A stretch of 43,154 nucleotides of DNA from a virus. The notes beneath the pieces are model-generated. The model was not told where the DNA came from. It saw only the letters and a program-made list of their open reading frames with translations, and ran no database searches. A program made the translations under genes and the position numbers. Location of the stretch: the IMG/VR virus record IMGVR_UViG_3300023184_002205, positions 1-43,154 of that record. One strand, given 5' to 3'. Shown here piece by piece: positions 9,998-17,670 of this stretch; position 1 is the first letter of the stretch; each line of letters starts with the position of its first letter.

Positions 9998-10005
9998 TAT
10001 TTATC
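9998..10005 (-). promoter_or_regulatory. Late-promoter octamer GATAAATA next to a start codon
   Basis: Minus-strand GATAAATA followed by CTGTATC and then the ATG at 9990. The extended match ATAAATACT fits T4 late promoters. The spacing implies a transcript starting at or beside the start codon. Confidence 0.5.
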
Positions 10006-10753
10006 TGCGTTCTATATCTTCTTCTAAGCAGGCGACACCGTATTGGATTTCAACTATTTTACAGGGCGTATCATAGGGATTGTGCAGTTTATGCCAACAT
10101 TCTGCCTTGATAGTAAACTGATCATGTGGCTTTAGTTTAATGTGGCTCTGCGTGGTCTCATCTTCAAAATCAACATGACAATGTCCTTCTGCTACATGCC
10201 AATGTTCATCACGATCATAGTGACGTTGTGTGGTTAGGCTTTGTCCTGGATTAATAGTAAGTTCTTTAACTTTTGTGCCTGGTGTTTCATGTAAGACACG
10301 ATAGTAGCCCCACGGGCGATTTGTCTTAGGAGCCTTCCATTCTTCCAGTATCCACGAGCTTGAGTTCTTCTTGTTCTCTCCGCCGACACCAAATTCAAAT
10401 ATGACATCGGGCTCTGACATTTCCGGAATATTATCTTTAGTTCGGTCGCCGCCATTGGCAAAGATAATTTCGCTGTTAGGATACATGGTCTTAACATTAC
10501 GTATGGCTTCTATAGCATGATCTTCTGTATCATTGAACAAGATGCAGTGATCCACCATCTTAAGATTTTCAATGATCTGCACACGTTCATAGCTGGGCAT
10601 GAATTCACGACCTTTTTTGCGACGTAGCCAACTGTCACTGTTTACTCCAACTACTAATATGTCACCGAGGCGCTTGGCCGCACGGAAATATTCGATGTGT
10701 CCTGAGTGTAAGGGATCAAATCCGCCCGTGCATAGAACCACTCTATTTACCAT
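10001..10753 (-). CDS. Nucleotidyltransferase fused to a mannose-6-phosphate isomerase-type cupin
   Basis: Two-domain protein of 250 residues. Residues 1-135 are a cytidylyltransferase-like domain: TGGFDPLHSGH at 9-19 contains the HxGH nucleotide motif, with NSD and GGDR (101-104) further on; nearest known types are RfaE/HldE C-terminal, TagD and glycerol-3-phosphate cytidylyltransferases. The usual ISSTxx signature is replaced by SSSWILEEW. Residues 144-250 are a cupin like the PMI half of ManC/AlgA: RPWGYYRV, then NPGQSLTTQRHYDRDEHWHVAEG with metal-binding His residues, and HKLHNPYDTPCKIVEIQYG. This pair suggests activation of a sugar phosphate plus isomerisation or epimerisation. It overlaps the methyltransferase stop by 11 bases, so the two are coupled. 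Domain calls are firm; substrate unknown. Confidence 0.85.
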   Translation of the reverse strand: MVNRVVLCTGGFDPLHSGHIEYFRAAKRLGDILVVGVNSDSWLRRKKGREFMPSYERVQIIENLKMVDHCILFNDTEDHAIEAIRNVKTMYPNSEIIFANGGDRTKDNIPEMSEPDVIFEFGVGGENKKNSSSWILEEWKAPKTNRPWGYYRVLHETPGTKVKELTINPGQSLTTQRHYDRDEHWHVAEGHCHVDFEDETTQSHIKLKPHDQFTIKAECWHKLHNPYDTPCKIVEIQYGVACLEEDIERR

Positions 10754-11666
10754 GCTTGTAGCTCTTTCTCGTTGGTGGTGTCGTGCTGATTTTCAAAGGT
10801 TTCAGTAATTTTGTTTCTTTTGTTGCAGTTTTGGCCTGCTGTATTGACTGGGTATCTGCATGAACAGTTTCATTGAATACTCCCTTGACTTCTGGAGTAA
10901 GGCCGGCAGTTCCTGGTGCCGGTTCCCAGTTACTAACGTAATCAATAAAGTAATTTTCTTTATCTAACCATGGCATAACTACTTCTTCTTGCCGCAAGAA
11001 CCCATGCGTGTTTATGCTGGATACTATACTGGGATGTAGTAGATTCTTATCAGCGAGATCATACCAATTAGTCGTTTCAGGGTCCATTACGGGAACATCT
11101 GTTTTATATACTGCCATCTGTATCCACGGATCTTGGAATTTTTTTAGTAGATATGCATCGCGACAGTCAAATCCATTTACTGCTAACATGTAGATTAAAC
11201 TTGTAGGAGTATAATTAAAGTAACATCCGTTATAGGTTCTACTATAGTATCTATTGTATTCAACTCCATTATGTTGGGGGATAGTAATTAACAGCATTCC
11301 GTTAACGGTCATGTAGCTGTTCCACATACGCAGAGTTTTTAATGGATTTGTGCTGTATTGTAGGCTATCATGTGCCCACATCAGATCTATACTTACTGGG
11401 AATAAATTTTCTTTATCATACGTATCACAGATTTTGTTTATGTTTTTTAATGTTGGAACCTGTGATATCTTACCAGGATCTCGATCCACTGCAAATACAT
11501 TGAAGTTGTAAGGTTCTGGTGGGTCTGCATAATTTTCTAAAGTAGCCCACCATTCTGCATCCTCACCTACTCCGCAACCCATGTCAGCTACTGTGCGTAT
11601 GCTTTCTAAAAATGTATCATACTGCTGTATGGTTTCTAATATGTGAGTCGCGTGCCTATTAGCCAA
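10743..11666 (-). CDS. SAM-dependent methyltransferase (class I)
   Basis: 307 residues. The Rossmann SAM site is VADMGCGVGEDAEWW (26-40), followed by an acidic ribose-binding residue in VFAVDRDPG and a motif-IV-like stretch in LMWAHDSLQYSTNP; later LLITIPQHNGVEY fits strand 5. The C-terminal ~60 residues are Thr/Lys/Pro-rich and probably disordered. It overlaps uvsY by 8 bases upstream and the nucleotidyltransferase-cupin gene downstream, so it belongs to the recombination operon in transcription but perhaps to the sugar gene in function. Sugar, protein or small-molecule methylation are all possible. Its by-product SAH is the substrate of the phage SAH hydrolase. Confidence 0.8.
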   Translation of the reverse strand: MANRHATHILETIQQYDTFLESIRTVADMGCGVGEDAEWWATLENYADPPEPYNFNVFAVDRDPGKISQVPTLKNINKICDTYDKENLFPVSIDLMWAHDSLQYSTNPLKTLRMWNSYMTVNGMLLITIPQHNGVEYNRYYSRTYNGCYFNYTPTSLIYMLAVNGFDCRDAYLLKKFQDPWIQMAVYKTDVPVMDPETTNWYDLADKNLLHPSIVSSINTHGFLRQEEVVMPWLDKENYFIDYVSNWEPAPGTAGLTPEVKGVFNETVHADTQSIQQAKTATKETKLLKPLKISTTPPTRKSYKHGK

Positions 11667-12114
11667 TTGATGCGTCCTCCATACCTGCTGTTCTCAAGCG
11701 TGTAACGTGTCCAAGCATGAAGTTCTTGCTTTCAAGTCCTTTCATGATACCTAACCATTTGTTACGTAAGAGTGCTACTTCGTTAATGATAGTTTCAAAG
11801 TCGATGACTTCGTCTTCACCGTCAACATACTTTTCAGCGTCACGGCTGGTCAGTGCTCGAGCATACCCTTCAAGATATTTTTGGAAGTGTTTCTTGCGTA
11901 TTTTTCTTAACTGAATGTTGAGGTAATTAAGAACTGCTTCGATCTCTTGTAGCTGATTGAAACGTCGTTCTGTAATTCCGGGCAGGCCAGCAAGATTCTT
12001 TTCTATGTTGCCATAGACCCCCACTTCCTTACGTGCATCTTCCAGTTCCTTTTCATAGTGTTGAATGAAATCAGGAATCGCGCCTAAACTAGCTACTACA
12101 CGACTATACCACAT
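11659..12114 (-). CDS. uvsY: UvsY recombination mediator
   Basis: 151 residues, close to T4 UvsY (137) in length and character: largely helical, with strongly charged segments and the region KHFQKYLEGYARALTSRDAEKYV (about 85-107), an acidic linker DGEDEVIDFE, then LLRNKWLGIMKGLESKNFMLGH and a C-terminal RTAGMEDASI typical of UvsY in marine T4-like phages. UvsY loads the UvsX recombinase on gp32-coated single-stranded DNA. The gene sits two positions after uvsX, separated by a small acidic protein gene, with one-base stop/start overlap; gp32 lies upstream in the same direction. Position and pattern agree. Confidence 0.85.
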   Translation of the reverse strand: MWYSRVVASLGAIPDFIQHYEKELEDARKEVGVYGNIEKNLAGLPGITERRFNQLQEIEAVLNYLNIQLRKIRKKHFQKYLEGYARALTSRDAEKYVDGEDEVIDFETIINEVALLRNKWLGIMKGLESKNFMLGHVTRLRTAGMEDASIG

Positions 12115-12356
12115 TAGTAGTCATCATCCTCGTCATCATAATCAACTTCTTCGACTTCTTCCTCACCAAGATATTCTGTTAATGCACGTTTAAGATAACT
12201 ATCTGTTCCACCAAAGGCTTTTAGTTCGCGTTCCGTGATGTTTTGGTCAGCGACTACACTGATTACATGATCTGCAGCCGCTTGGCGATCTTTAGGAGCG
12301 ATATACTCTTTACAGGTCATCCAGATTTCACTAAGTGCGTCTAATTCAACATTCAT
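12114..12356 (-). CDS. Small acidic protein between uvsX and uvsY
   Basis: 80 residues. The first ~65 are predicted helical (ITERELKAFGGTDSYLKRALTEYL) and the last ~15 are almost all Asp/Glu/Tyr (EEVEEVDYDDEDDDY). No catalytic motif is visible. It starts on the last base of uvsX and ends on the first base of uvsY, so it is translated with them. Acidic tails of this kind occur on proteins that bind SSB or mimic DNA, for example the gp32 C-terminus, so a regulatory role in recombination is possible. Family unknown to me beyond a similar gene at this place in related phages. Confidence 0.75.
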   Translation of the reverse strand: MNVELDALSEIWMTCKEYIAPKDRQAAADHVISVVADQNITERELKAFGGTDSYLKRALTEYLGEEEVEEVDYDDEDDDY

Positions 12357-13512: not shown

Positions 13513-14670
13513 TTAATTGCCCTCTATTAAATTGTATAATTCTGGAAATACTACCCTACTATTTAGGTTACGGCGTTGATCTATCTTAGCTATTTCGTCT
13601 AAACAGTGTTTAATATTCTTTTCCATAGGTGTCTTTATATATTGTAACATATTCACAAGACTGTTTTCAAGTAGATAACCTGGTTTTTGATTAATCCACT
13701 CCTGTAATTCAAGCTCTACTGATTGTAGCATACTATTTGGTAAATGTCTAACATTTAAATGGTTTGGTTCTAACAATGGTCCAATAACAAAACTATTGTT
13801 ATGATACCCTAATCCCTGTAGGAATCTAACAGTGTCAAATATTGATCTGTAATTTAACAAGTGGTGCAACATATTAAATGATATCTTATGATTGAGTTTA
13901 GTAATTTGACTGAGATTGTCTAAAAAGTCTCTCCAACTACTTCCGTATCTAACATATTCAAATTCAGCATCCATTTCATCAATGCTCACAGTCCAATGAA
14001 CGTTAGGGAATTCGCAAATTTTCTCAAAAACTCGTGTTTCAGTTTTGCTTAAATTAGTGTTTATCCTAAGATTAACCTGAGGATTTTTTTCTTGTAGTAT
14101 TTCTAATAACTCTAAATTTTCCTTCATTAACAACGGCTCACCACCGGCCATATATACATGTCTAAGTTGCTCTGCATGATCAAATACATATTTCTTCATG
14201 TTTTGAAAATGAAATCGAGGCACTTCTTGGAATTTTACATTTAATTCTGTTGCCCATTTACTACTGAATTCGGGACTACAATACACACAGGCAAAATTGC
14301 AGGTATTATTCCAACGTATATCTATGGTTCGCAAATCAAAAGCGTCAATGCTTTTATATGTGTTAAGATCAACATCTTTAAGTTCTTTTAAATAAAACAC
14401 ACGATCACTAATAATGTCAAAACTATTTTTGCCCTGTTCTAAATCATAACAAACACCACAAGTAGGACCTGGTTTGTTATAGGTCATATTATGTTTTGTT
14501 GTTAGATTAACTTCGCCTTGTAGTATTTCTGTTATACTATTGTCTTTTAAATTACCAATCGGAGTTTGATTGCGTATACAGTTTTTAACTGTTCCATCAA
14601 AGTTATACATAAATCCTGTCCAAGGTATAGGGCAGAAATTCTTATCAGTTAGATATTTTTTATGATCCAC
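13513..14670 (-). CDS. Radical SAM protein with twitch/SPASM-like cysteine domain
   Basis: 385 residues. The radical SAM motif CNFACVYC holds Cys124, Cys128 and Cys131, followed by HVYMAGGEPLL, the GGEP SAM-binding motif. The N-terminus has an extra cysteine set (Cys13 in FCPIPWTGF, Cys31 in VKNCIRN, Cys71 and Cys74 in CGVCYDLEQ), the pattern of an N-terminal twitch domain that can hold an auxiliary 4Fe-4S cluster. Proteins with this arrangement occur in viral and environmental genomes, and their substrates are unknown; classical SPASM/twitch enzymes modify peptides or sugars. It overlaps the SDR gene by 22 bases and lies directly before uvsX. Enzyme class is firm, substrate not known. Confidence 0.88.
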   Translation of the reverse strand: MDHKKYLTDKNFCPIPWTGFMYNFDGTVKNCIRNQTPIGNLKDNSITEILQGEVNLTTKHNMTYNKPGPTCGVCYDLEQGKNSFDIISDRVFYLKELKDVDLNTYKSIDAFDLRTIDIRWNNTCNFACVYCSPEFSSKWATELNVKFQEVPRFHFQNMKKYVFDHAEQLRHVYMAGGEPLLMKENLELLEILQEKNPQVNLRINTNLSKTETRVFEKICEFPNVHWTVSIDEMDAEFEYVRYGSSWRDFLDNLSQITKLNHKISFNMLHHLLNYRSIFDTVRFLQGLGYHNNSFVIGPLLEPNHLNVRHLPNSMLQSVELELQEWINQKPGYLLENSLVNMLQYIKTPMEKNIKHCLDEIAKIDQRRNLNSRVVFPELYNLIEGN

Positions 14671-15140
14671 TCATAAACTCCTTGAGCATAGTGATCTACA
14701 TCTGTATATTCTGGTGGTGATTGACCTGGTTGCGTAGCTATGCTACCTGGTCTGATCATTATCTGTCTGGGCCACATGTTACGTTCTGTCAATAGTTCTT
14801 CTGCCAATTCTAAGGCTTTCTTTTGTATGATATATTCATCCCATTCACGTTTAGGTGGGACTATCAAATCAGTCATCTGTGTGCTGATATTTACTATAGT
14901 TTTCTCTTGCCCTTCCCAGCGACGCCATATTTCAAACAGTAATTCTGTTTGTGCAAATCCTACTTGAGCATTATTAATAAACATATCACAAGGTTCGATC
15001 ATACCTGCTACCTTAGGCAGACTACGAATATTATAGCCATTACGACGACTAAGCCCAATAACTTCATGCCCGTGTGAATGGCACATCTTTGCTAATGCCT
15101 GACCTATACCAGCACTGTGTCCGGTAATTGCTATTTTCAT
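14649..15140 (-). CDS. Compact short-chain dehydrogenase/reductase-like protein
   Basis: 163 residues, much shorter than the usual ~250 of SDR enzymes. All key motifs remain: the NAD(P) motif TGHSAGIG (6-13), NNAQ (about 56-59), a Ser in VNISTQMT, and YIIQKK giving the YxxxK catalytic pair; IRPGSIATQP matches the PG motif after the active site. The missing length lies in loops and helices between strands and at the substrate end, so either a minimal reductase or a decayed but still binding-competent copy is possible. It overlaps both radical SAM neighbours (4 and 22 bases), which argues that it is translated with them and kept intact. Confidence 0.78.
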   Translation of the reverse strand: MKIAITGHSAGIGQALAKMCHSHGHEVIGLSRRNGYNIRSLPKVAGMIEPCDMFINNAQVGFAQTELLFEIWRRWEGQEKTIVNISTQMTDLIVPPKREWDEYIIQKKALELAEELLTERNMWPRQIMIRPGSIATQPGQSPPEYTDVDHYAQGVYEWIIKNI

Positions 15141-16027
15141 GGCATACCTCTTAATCGTTTTTGCTCTTGTATGTATGCCAGACTTTCGGGAGTATCTTTA
15201 TTTTTAACTGCTAATTCTTGTGGATCTGTTAAGTATGCATAACTATGTTCTAAATTATGTATTTTAATAAATTCTAATATGTTTGGTAAATCATCTACGT
15301 TCAAGGCACTTACTGTAGTCCAGGTATTCAGACGCACAGGCATAGACATATACTGTTGTAAATTTTTGTAAAACTTATCCCACGTAATTGGCCAACGTAC
15401 AAAATCATGTACGGGTCCGATACCATCAAGACTAACAGTTACAGTAACATGGATTCCACGATTACATAAGTCCTGTAGTTCTTCTAATACTGTGCTACAG
15501 TTTGTATTAAGTCTGATAGACTTAACATTCTCGGGTAAATTTGCTAAGATATATTTGTAGTTTTTACTGTAGCTTGGTTCCCCACCGTTAATATCTAAAT
15601 GCACTATACGTTCTAAGGGCAGTGACCAAAAACTGTTAGCATTATTGATCTTGATATATTTTTTACTCGTAAGGCCGCCAATTTTCGTGCTGAGTTCTGC
15701 ATTACAAGTTAGGCAAGCACTATTGCATACATTATCCAACACGCCGCCAACTATTAGATAATCTTTGCGTAGGCTTTTAAATGCACGATCTCTATTGATG
15801 CTGTCTAAACGGATACTGGTATTAGACTCTTGTTCTGTAGTCTTACAGCGTTGACATTCAATGGGCCAAGCATCACGTGCCATTTCATCACGTATGTTTT
15901 TTAACCATTCACTGGATTGTAGTTCTTCATATGTATTAAATTTTGGACTGTTGGTCATATGGCCGCAACATCCCACTGAACTATCAGGATTAAAACGAAC
16001 GAAATGATCTAATCTGGGGCAATACAT
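15137..16027 (-). CDS. Second radical SAM/twitch-type protein
   Basis: 296 residues. The cluster motif CNSACLTC gives Cys101, Cys105 and Cys108, followed by HLDINGGEPSYS with the GGEP-like motif and VTVSLDG for strand 4. The N-terminus carries Cys3, Cys20-Cys21, Cys58 and Cys61 (PIECQRCKTTEQE), again a twitch-like set placed before the barrel as in the gene at 13513-14670. The two share layout but little sequence, so they are old paralogues or independent acquisitions. Its start overlaps the sulfotransferase-like gene by 19 bases and its stop overlaps the SDR start. Two radical SAM enzymes in one cluster suggest successive steps on one substrate. Confidence 0.85.
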   Translation of the reverse strand: MYCPRLDHFVRFNPDSSVGCCGHMTNSPKFNTYEELQSSEWLKNIRDEMARDAWPIECQRCKTTEQESNTSIRLDSINRDRAFKSLRKDYLIVGGVLDNVCNSACLTCNAELSTKIGGLTSKKYIKINNANSFWSLPLERIVHLDINGGEPSYSKNYKYILANLPENVKSIRLNTNCSTVLEELQDLCNRGIHVTVTVSLDGIGPVHDFVRWPITWDKFYKNLQQYMSMPVRLNTWTTVSALNVDDLPNILEFIKIHNLEHSYAYLTDPQELAVKNKDTPESLAYIQEQKRLRGMP

Positions 16028-16638
16028 TTTAATTTTTGAAACGCAATAGGATCTTGTTCTTTAATATAATTTAATATTTCAGTAAAACATAATTCTCTAC
16101 CAATTAGTTTAACCAGTAATTGATCTATTCTCAAATACATTTCGTTATGTATATTTGTAGATAATTCAAAAATTTGATCTGATGTTAAAATTTTATCTTC
16201 TGGCGGGTTACTTTTTTCTGTGGTTAATTTATCTAATTCTTTCATATCATAAAATTTTAATTTTGTGTCTGCATCAATAAATCTACTCAGATTAGTTAAC
16301 CAAGAAATTTGTGGAGCATAGTGCCTATTAAGAAATAGATAATTGTTAGTAAAATAGAAAATTGTATCTATATCTAATGCAGGATTTTCTTTTTTTGTGT
16401 TGAACACAAAGGTATTTACACCAGATATGAATCTTTCCAACGGATCGCGTAAGATCACATCAATGGTTGATGCTCGTTTTATCTGATCATTGATAATGAT
16501 TTTATATGGTCTTATTGGATAATAAGTTAAGCTGGTGCGACCATTTTTGTAAATAGGATAGACGAACCGCTGTGGGTCCGAAAATTCAATGACTTCACAG
16601 CGGTTCGGGTAGATTATATCATCTATCCTTGATAACAT
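16009..16638 (-). CDS. Sulfotransferase-like protein
   Basis: 209 residues. IYKNGRTSLTYY (29-40) resembles the 5'-phosphosulfate loop (KxGxTS) of PAPS-dependent sulfotransferases, and VILRDPLERFISGV (61-74) matches the 3'-phosphate motif RxPxxRxxSG. The spacing between the motifs (~30 residues) is short but within the range of family-2-like bacterial members. No membrane segment is seen. It would move a sulfo group from PAPS to a sugar, lipid or peptide. It starts 22 bases after gp32 stops, and opens a run of four overlapping genes that ends at uvsX. Motif match is good, acceptor unknown. Confidence 0.72.
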   Translation of the reverse strand: MLSRIDDIIYPNRCEVIEFSDPQRFVYPIYKNGRTSLTYYPIRPYKIIINDQIKRASTIDVILRDPLERFISGVNTFVFNTKKENPALDIDTIFYFTNNYLFLNRHYAPQISWLTNLSRFIDADTKLKFYDMKELDKLTTEKSNPPEDKILTSDQIFELSTNIHNEMYLRIDQLLVKLIGRELCFTEILNYIKEQDPIAFQKLKCIAPD

Positions 16639-16659: not shown

Positions 16660-17670
16660 TTACGATGTCTTTTGACGATTGCGGATCATCGCTAAGATGT
16701 CCTCAGCACGTGCTGTTCCACCTGCTGGAGGTGTAGTAACTGGTGCTGTAGGAGCCGCTGGTGCAGCCTCTGCGATTGGTGTTGGAGCCGCTACTGCCGC
16801 TGGAGCATCAAACTCTTCATCAGCTGGTGCTGGTGCACTTGCTGCTGGTGCCGATGCGGCTTCAGCGGTAACGATTGTTACACCTCTTGGTTTGTAATAG
16901 TTACCCCAACGATCTGCGTCATATGCCTGACCATCTACTGATGCTTCAAACATTTCTTTGATAACTTTTAGTTCTACGTCACTTGGTTTCTTAGGTAAGA
17001 AATCTTTCAAGTTGTATAAACCGTGAGTTTCAATAGCCGCAGCTTCTTCTGCTGTTAGTGCAGATTCTTTGCGTGACCATTTGCTAGTGCTATAGTCAGC
17101 GTAACCACCTTTTGATGTTTTAGTAACTGTAAAGTCTAAACCACCTTGGTAGTCTGTTGGAAGGTTTTCCAACTCTGGATCTAACAAAGCCGCTTTAACT
17201 AAGTTAAAGATTTGTGGGCTGATGATAAATCTGCGAATTGGGTTTTCTGGTGTCTTGTCATCTGCAAGTGGATTCTCACGCACAAAACCTTGGAATAAGT
17301 AACTACGTTTCTTCCAATACTTACGACCCATTTCTTCTAAACTTTGGTCTTTAAACCAAGTTCTGACTTCTGCTAAGATTGGGCATGCTTCGCCCCACAT
17401 CTCAACGCATGGTACTTGAACTGTGACTGGTTTACTGTCTGCTTGACCTTTAACGCCAGCAAATGGTAAATTGATCATTGCTCTTTCTACCCAGAAGAAT
17501 GTGTTTTTTGGATCTGCGTCTGGAAGGAATCTGATTCGAGCGTTAGTGCCCTCTGCGATGTTCCAGTGTGCGTAGATAGCGTTGTCGCCACCTGTTTGTG
17601 AATTGCCGCCTGTGCCGCGGTTTTCTTGTGCTTGTAATTTTGCACGGATTTCTGCTAATGATGTTGCCAT
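16660..17670 (-). CDS. 32: gp32 single-stranded DNA-binding protein
   Basis: 336 residues (T4 gp32 is 301). The N-terminal region is followed by the OB-fold core (NARIRFLPDADPKNTFFWVERAM and the aromatic-rich KYWKKRSYLFQGFVREN). The Cys pair in VPCVEMWGEACPIL lies where T4 has its zinc knuckle, but only two cysteines are there, so the full His-Cys3 zinc site is not evident. The C-terminal ~80 residues are an Ala/Pro-rich low-complexity linker and tail ending AEDILAMIRNRQKTS, longer and less acidic than the T4 tail that binds partners. It coats single-stranded DNA for replication and recombination with UvsX and UvsY. AAGGAG lies at ideal spacing before the ATG. Confidence 0.9.
   Translation of the reverse strand: MATSLAEIRAKLQAQENRGTGGNSQTGGDNAIYAHWNIAEGTNARIRFLPDADPKNTFFWVERAMINLPFAGVKGQADSKPVTVQVPCVEMWGEACPILAEVRTWFKDQSLEEMGRKYWKKRSYLFQGFVRENPLADDKTPENPIRRFIISPQIFNLVKAALLDPELENLPTDYQGGLDFTVTKTSKGGYADYSTSKWSRKESALTAEEAAAIETHGLYNLKDFLPKKPSDVELKVIKEMFEASVDGQAYDADRWGNYYKPRGVTIVTAEAASAPAASAPAPADEEFDAPAAVAAPTPIAEAAPAAPTAPVTTPPAGGTARAEDILAMIRNRQKTS

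Follow-up and report, generated by a model that had tools for sequence, protein, structure and literature searches.

Both radical S-adenosylmethionine (SAM) genes and sulfotransferase genes have been reported in phages. Radical-SAM genes abound in some environmental T4-like phages: TARA_ERS488813_N000010 carries 12 of them (PMC5332604), and hypervariable-region cassettes are described for pelagimyophages (PMC7029224). OM43 phages and a Synechococcus phage encode Sulfotransfer_3 sulfotransferases, whose role is called unclear by the authors (PMC10580990). In apramycin biosynthesis the radical-SAM dehydratase AprD4 and the NADPH reductase AprD3 carry out the C3' deoxygenation of a sugar (PMC5461906). 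Here we analyze the 43,154-base virus record IMGVR_UViG_3300023184_002205 (the window), which at 13513-16638 on the minus strand encodes two radical-SAM proteins (rS1 and rS2), a short-chain dehydrogenase/reductase (SDR) and a sulfotransferase (ST), all between the gp32 and uvsX genes. The four genes form a mobile, modular cassette in a large T4-type myovirus lineage, built from the overlapping pairs ST-rS2 and SDR-rS1; the reading we favor, with confidence and doubt about evenly balanced, is that its enzymes modify and sulfate an acceptor resembling a sugar, probably as a glycoconjugate decoration. The genes and their borders, in order of transcription, are:

16660..17670, minus strand: gp32-like single-stranded-DNA-binding protein, upstream border of the insertion site (named from the sequence-only reading and from its position)
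16009..16638, minus strand: ST, sulfotransferase, 209 amino acids (aa); 5'-phosphosulfate-binding (5'-PSB) loop Y-P-I-Y-K31-N-G-R-T-S and 3'-phosphate-binding (3'-PB) motif R64-DPLERFI-S72-G
15137..16027, minus strand: rS2, N-terminal twitch radical-SAM protein, 296 aa; CxxxCxxC at 101-108, auxiliary C3, C21, C58 and C61, GGEP motif
14649..15140, minus strand: SDR, minimal short-chain dehydrogenase/reductase, 163 aa; TGHSAGIG, NNA, S86, Y103 and K107
13513..14670, minus strand: rS1, N-terminal twitch radical-SAM protein, 385 aa, GTG start; CxxxCxxC at 124-131, auxiliary C13, C31, C71 and C74
12356..13510, minus strand: uvsX recombinase, downstream border of the insertion site

The cassette is an overlapping operon, transcribed gp32 - ST - rS2 - SDR - rS1 - uvsX. 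The overlaps measure 19 bp for ST/rS2 (16009-16027), 4 bp for rS2/SDR (15137-15140) and 22 bp for SDR/rS1 (14649-14670), in agreement with the 4-22 bases given by an earlier sequence-only reading of this DNA, and the gaps to gp32 and uvsX are 21 bp and 2 bp. The GTG start of rS1 coincides with the invariant first methionine of its homologues. The record bears the T4-type markers TerL, UvsX, UvsY and tail sheath; its closest cultured relatives are giant T4-like phages (TerL 56% and UvsX about 68-71% identity), and related uncultured contigs are as long as 212 and 261 kb.

Among cultured phages ST and rS2 are without any match and rS1 finds only 23% local identity. The relatives in uncultured viral contigs, most of them fragments, number 110 for rS1, at least 495 for ST and at least 588 for rS2. 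In 156 distinct gp32-uvsX intervals, a set partly picked by the cassette genes themselves, all four genes are found in 95, none in 53, ST and rS2 only in 6, all but SDR in 1 and all but rS1 in 1. The full set is thus present in 95 of the 103 intervals with any cassette gene, contrary to the possibility, raised by the sequence-only reading, that the genes would always be found separately in relatives, and SDR or rS1 never occurs without ST and rS2. A sample picked by gp32 alone (65 intervals) contains all four genes in 9, ST and rS2 in 2 and none in 54, and in many of these 54 fewer than 100 bases, at minimum 4, separate gp32 from uvsX. Such empty sites confirm that the genes were inserted between gp32 and uvsX, as had been proposed, and since cassette-free and empty sites are common the junction is an insertion hot spot. 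Other cassette-free junctions hold formyltransferase, 2-oxoglutarate (2OG)-oxygenase-like, SGNH-like, B12-type radical-SAM and kinase/nucleotidyltransferase-like genes (L225-L301; some identified by motif only). At one locus (L282) the two blocks are swapped to SDR-rS1-ST-rS2, and the four-gene set persists even where homologues are only about 30% identical. Roughly one full cassette in three, the window's not among them, encodes an additional small protein that bears 2OG-dioxygenase motifs and whose gene nearly always separates rS2 from SDR; with conserved H80, D82, H129 and R141 and one weak Asp_Arg_Hydrox match, it may be called Asp/Asn-hydroxylase-like, mainly by motif.

The dN/dS ratios of rS1, rS2 and SDR are about 0.08-0.12, comparable to those of gp32 and uvsX, and this purifying selection indicates that they are maintained genes and not chance open reading frames (ORFs). 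Cassette and backbone have diverged out of step: in pairs of phages whose uvsX is at least 90% identical, rS1 is 42-95% and ST 29-99% identical, while in pairs with uvsX below 85% ST is up to 92% identical, which argues that related phages have traded the cassette. Of the four proteins ST has diverged most rapidly (median distance 0.62), as would be expected for a variable acceptor.

Both radical-SAM proteins are recognized by Pfam, rS1 by Radical_SAM (E=4e-15) and by SPASM (E=1e-6, residues 13-74) and rS2 by Radical_SAM (E=9e-7). Their CxxxCxxC and GGEP-type motifs, which with the partial TIM barrel mark the radical SAM superfamily, are invariant or nearly so. rS1 is a member of NCBIfam NF033640 (N_Twi_rSAM; 254.6 bits, curated cut-off 170), and rS2, at 141.4 bits (E 4e-41), is a relative below that cut-off. 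Four N-terminal cysteines are invariant in each protein, C13, C31, C71 and C74 of rS1 (31 diverse sequences) besides barrel C124/C128/C131, and C3, C21, C58 and C61 of rS2 (25 diverse sequences) besides barrel C101/C105/C108; the spacing between the first two, 17 residues, is identical in both. A conserved quartet of cysteines outside the barrel is the pattern of a twitch auxiliary cluster, and from their sequences rS1 and rS2 are each assigned an N-terminal domain of this type, which bears out the auxiliary clusters suggested earlier from these cysteines. A profile of rS1 aligns with the twitch region of BtrN (E 2e-4), a radical-SAM dehydrogenase that acts on an aminocyclitol. The predicted structure of rS2 (predicted local distance difference test, pLDDT, 93.2) matches NifB, SuiB, MoaA, SkfB, viperin and BlsE at Z 11-12, the sugar-acting BlsE at Z 11, which settles the fold though not the substrate. 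Tandem duplication of one radical-SAM gene was considered and rejected: rS1 and rS2 each form a monophyletic group (support 0.96 and 1.0), and the two are separate lineages rather than sisters, because the tree places other phage radical-SAM lineages between them.

The SDR motifs TGxxxGIG, NNA and YxxxK are almost all invariant in 27 homologues, with G7/G11/G13, N57-A58, Y103 and K107 strictly so and the catalytic Ser replaced in some. The protein has the classical SDR motifs and, at 163 aa, not the ~250-residue domain, its matches spanning partial SDR stretches; it is best classed, by its motifs, as a shortened classical SDR in which these are intact, as the earlier call of a minimal SDR had it.

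ST itself finds no sulfotransferase match in Pfam or NCBIfam. Sulfotransfer_2 (PF03567), a family largely of carbohydrate sulfotransferases, is matched by 10 of its 44 homologues at E 0.0015 or weaker and is the sole family matched by more than two. A 5'-PSB lysine loop and an R-x7-S pattern define the binding of 3'-phosphoadenosine 5'-phosphosulfate (PAPS), and both, the loop as Y-x-I-x-K-N-[GA]-x-x-[ST], are kept across the 44 homologues, in which K31, R64, R69, G73, H106, Q110, W113 and D172 are invariant and S72 is present in at least 90%. The ST model has a pLDDT of 89.7, and the 43 top-ranked solved structures aligned to it by VIA-align are all sulfotransferases, heparan-sulfate 3-O-, 2-O- and N-sulfotransferases first (Z 5.0-6.0 over ~150 residues). 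Foldseek gives no significant E-value (~0.1), yet sulfotransferases fill its top nine rows; when ST and the added dioxygenase were compared as sequence profiles with solved structures, no convincing match emerged. Motifs and structure model thus uphold the original sulfotransferase call: we are highly confident that ST is a sulfotransferase and moderately confident that it is of the carbohydrate type.

A bacterial donor of the cassette was sought and not supported. In a search of 84,980 species rS1 finds 15 distant matches (22-28%), mostly in Bdellovibrionota-type and other metagenome-assembled genomes. An ST profile, used without a positive control, has no match in 7 genomes with rS1 matches nor in 395 genomes of the phylum of genome G010. 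Bacteria seldom encode NF033640 proteins: in one phylum just 2 of 395 genomes have one above the cut-off. Near the bacterial rS1 relatives 42 of 94 scanned ORFs are radical-SAM genes, the queries' own relatives counted; a few DegT, glycosyltransferase and nucleotide-sugar dehydrogenase genes lie there too, which counts toward a sugar acceptor though their number is small. Neither the cultured phages nor the bacteria that were searched contained the full set.

From these parts we infer the reaction types, their order, the class of acceptor and the benefit. rS2 and rS1 would each hold one SAM-cleaving [4Fe-4S] cluster and one auxiliary twitch cluster, and would carry out radical C-H chemistry (dehydrogenation, epimerization or dehydration) on a hydroxylated, sugar-like acceptor of host or phage origin. 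SDR with NAD(P)H may reduce or re-oxidize a carbonyl arising from the radical step, so that the SDR-rS1 pair might work like AprD4/AprD3 or as a dehydrogenase/epimerase with its ketoreductase. ST would then cap a hydroxyl with sulfate from host PAPS, and because ST and rS2 can stand alone they are proposed as the core pair. Two radical C-H enzymes, a reductase, a sulfotransferase and an optional hydroxylase suggest a tailoring route and not scaffold synthesis. During infection this would leave a glycoconjugate of host or phage with an unusual, sulfated decoration; a possible benefit is receptor masking or an altered cell or virion surface.

The acceptor is most likely a glycoconjugate sugar unit because of the carbohydrate-type ST, the BtrN/BlsE resemblance and the nearby decorating transferases, the same site and related arrays carrying formyltransferase, carbamoyltransferase, amidinotransferase-like, SGNH-like, Asp/Asn-hydroxylase-like and epimerase genes. 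Eight long related contigs have 1-15 NF033640 matches each, in arrays of four to six consecutive genes adjoining carbamoyltransferase, amidinotransferase-like, SGNH-like (by motif) and epimerase genes. Several features weigh against a sugar acceptor: the cassette itself is without a substrate, glycosyltransferase or nucleotide-sugar gene; rS2 structurally matches peptide, nucleotide and cofactor enzymes (SuiB, SkfB, MoaA, viperin, NifB) equally; the ST fold match is modest (best Z 6.0; Foldseek E about 0.1); and sugar genes near bacterial rS1 relatives are few (DegT, glycosyltransferase and nucleotide-sugar dehydrogenase, 1-2 of the 94 ORFs each). A search of the eight long contigs for a sulfate supply through adenosine 5'-phosphosulfate (APS) kinase gave two weak matches only, one apparently in a longer kinase/nucleotidyltransferase-like protein. 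A bolder version, put forward tentatively, is that the cassette is a complete phage-borne pathway unknown in cultured organisms, in which a novel sugar or sugar-like unit, the work of rS1/rS2 and the reductase, is capped by ST to give a fast-varying sulfated surface mark on infected cells or virions as part of a larger twitch radical-SAM arsenal.

The radical-SAM arrays (G001-G007; e.g. L302:10567-17464, L303:4092-12795 and L304:8356-13480) occur also in phages without the four-gene cassette, and in many relatives uvsY and the small gene linked to uvsX flank a second site, which holds a third and divergent twitch radical-SAM gene (e.g. L204:15035-16282). In the window a heptose-1-phosphate adenylyltransferase-like domain is fused to a mannose-6-phosphate-isomerase-type cupin (10001-10753, minus strand), a fusion that many relatives carry regardless of the cassette. 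The methyltransferase and cytidylyltransferase-cupin genes (10001-11666) were considered as pathway partners and set aside, being present also in cassette-free relatives.

The sequence-only reading had the enzymes possibly building and capping an unusual peptide or sugar modification. Its peptide half, in the form of a ribosomally synthesized and post-translationally modified peptide with an adjacent precursor, fails: a conserved small substrate peptide, which it suggested seeking nearby, was looked for in the operon and not found, there being no intergenic room and no small conserved ORF within or beside the cassette. A sugar or other small acceptor fits better. A wider form, that the radical-SAM pair cross-links or epimerizes a protein encoded elsewhere and ST sulfates a tyrosine or an introduced hydroxyl, draws on the solved-structure matches to SkfB, SuiB and anSME and on the Asp/Asn-hydroxylase-like oxygenase (mainly by motif) inside many relatives' cassettes, but the N-terminal domain is a twitch and no obvious leader-binding domain (rS2 residues 1-90 are twitch and linker; no search aimed at RiPP recognition element, RRE, domains was made). 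It has a possible substrate in a protein of 80 aa that adjoins uvsX in most relatives and whose acidic tail mostly contains a tyrosine, but cassette-free phages have this protein just as well. We consider modification of a protein or peptide rather unlikely. In the window the 80-aa protein lies between uvsX and uvsY (12114-12356, minus strand); its acidic tail usually ends near a tyrosine, and most relatives retain the protein whether they carry the cassette or lack it. Proposed for its DY-rich tail as the sulfation substrate, it was rejected on that distribution and on the absence of the tyrosine in some cassette-bearing relatives.

The tailoring-type enzymes of a free-standing cassette would also suit a secreted or intracellular small natural product (a signal, an inhibitor or siderophore-like) in place of a glycoconjugate decoration, and sulfation caps many natural products; but with no scaffold-building enzyme in the cassette such a product would need a host precursor, and we judge it improbable. 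Action on nucleotides or on phage DNA, of the viperin or queuosine type, is suggested by MoaA and viperin among the best structural matches, by weak pVip matches and by the replication-gene neighborhood between gp32 and uvsX. This is decidedly improbable, for rS1 scores 35.9 bits against the NCBIfam viperin cut-off of 180, the pVip match (E 8e-11) probably comes from the common barrel, the same slot in relatives holds unrelated enzymes so that location says little on function, and we know of no sulfotransferase-based nucleobase modification. That the four are unrelated cargo genes sharing an insertion hot spot of varied content is very improbable against their near-total co-occurrence, translational overlaps and conservation as a set to about 30% identity.

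The compact, conserved modular set and the known empty site make the role of phage radical-SAM and sulfotransferase genes tractable: the cassette offers four small co-expressible proteins, natural presence/absence variants and a clear readout, the sulfated product.

In comparison with known systems, rS1 and rS2 share with NF033640 the four-Cys N-terminal twitch and the CxxxCxxC barrel, but here two such proteins of separate lineages stand together with an SDR and a sulfotransferase, and the family name implies no function. AprD4/AprD3 resembles the SDR-rS1 pair as a radical-SAM enzyme with a reductase, an analogy confined to the proposed way of working, and no sulfotransferase partner is described for it. 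With the carbohydrate sulfotransferases (PF03567; heparan-sulfate 3-O-, 2-O- and N-) ST shares the fold, the 5'-PSB lysine and the R-x7-S pattern, but it is only about 10-18% identical in structural alignments, smaller and below Pfam detection. The phage Sulfotransfer_3 enzymes (PMC10580990) belong to another Pfam family than ST, and no radical-SAM partners are reported for them there. The radical-SAM-rich T4-like phages are alike in their many radical-SAM genes of unassigned role, but the available parts of those accounts (PMC5332604, PMC7029224) do not describe the four-gene set, the gp32-uvsX site or a sulfotransferase partner. The literature searched contains no description of the two-module cassette, its hot-spot site or its hydroxylase variant, and no matching phage pathway, in line with the sequence-only reading, which could recall none with these four enzymes. 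Radical-SAM-rich T4-like phages and phage sulfotransferases are thus already known, and what appears new is their linkage in a four-gene cassette at gp32-uvsX.

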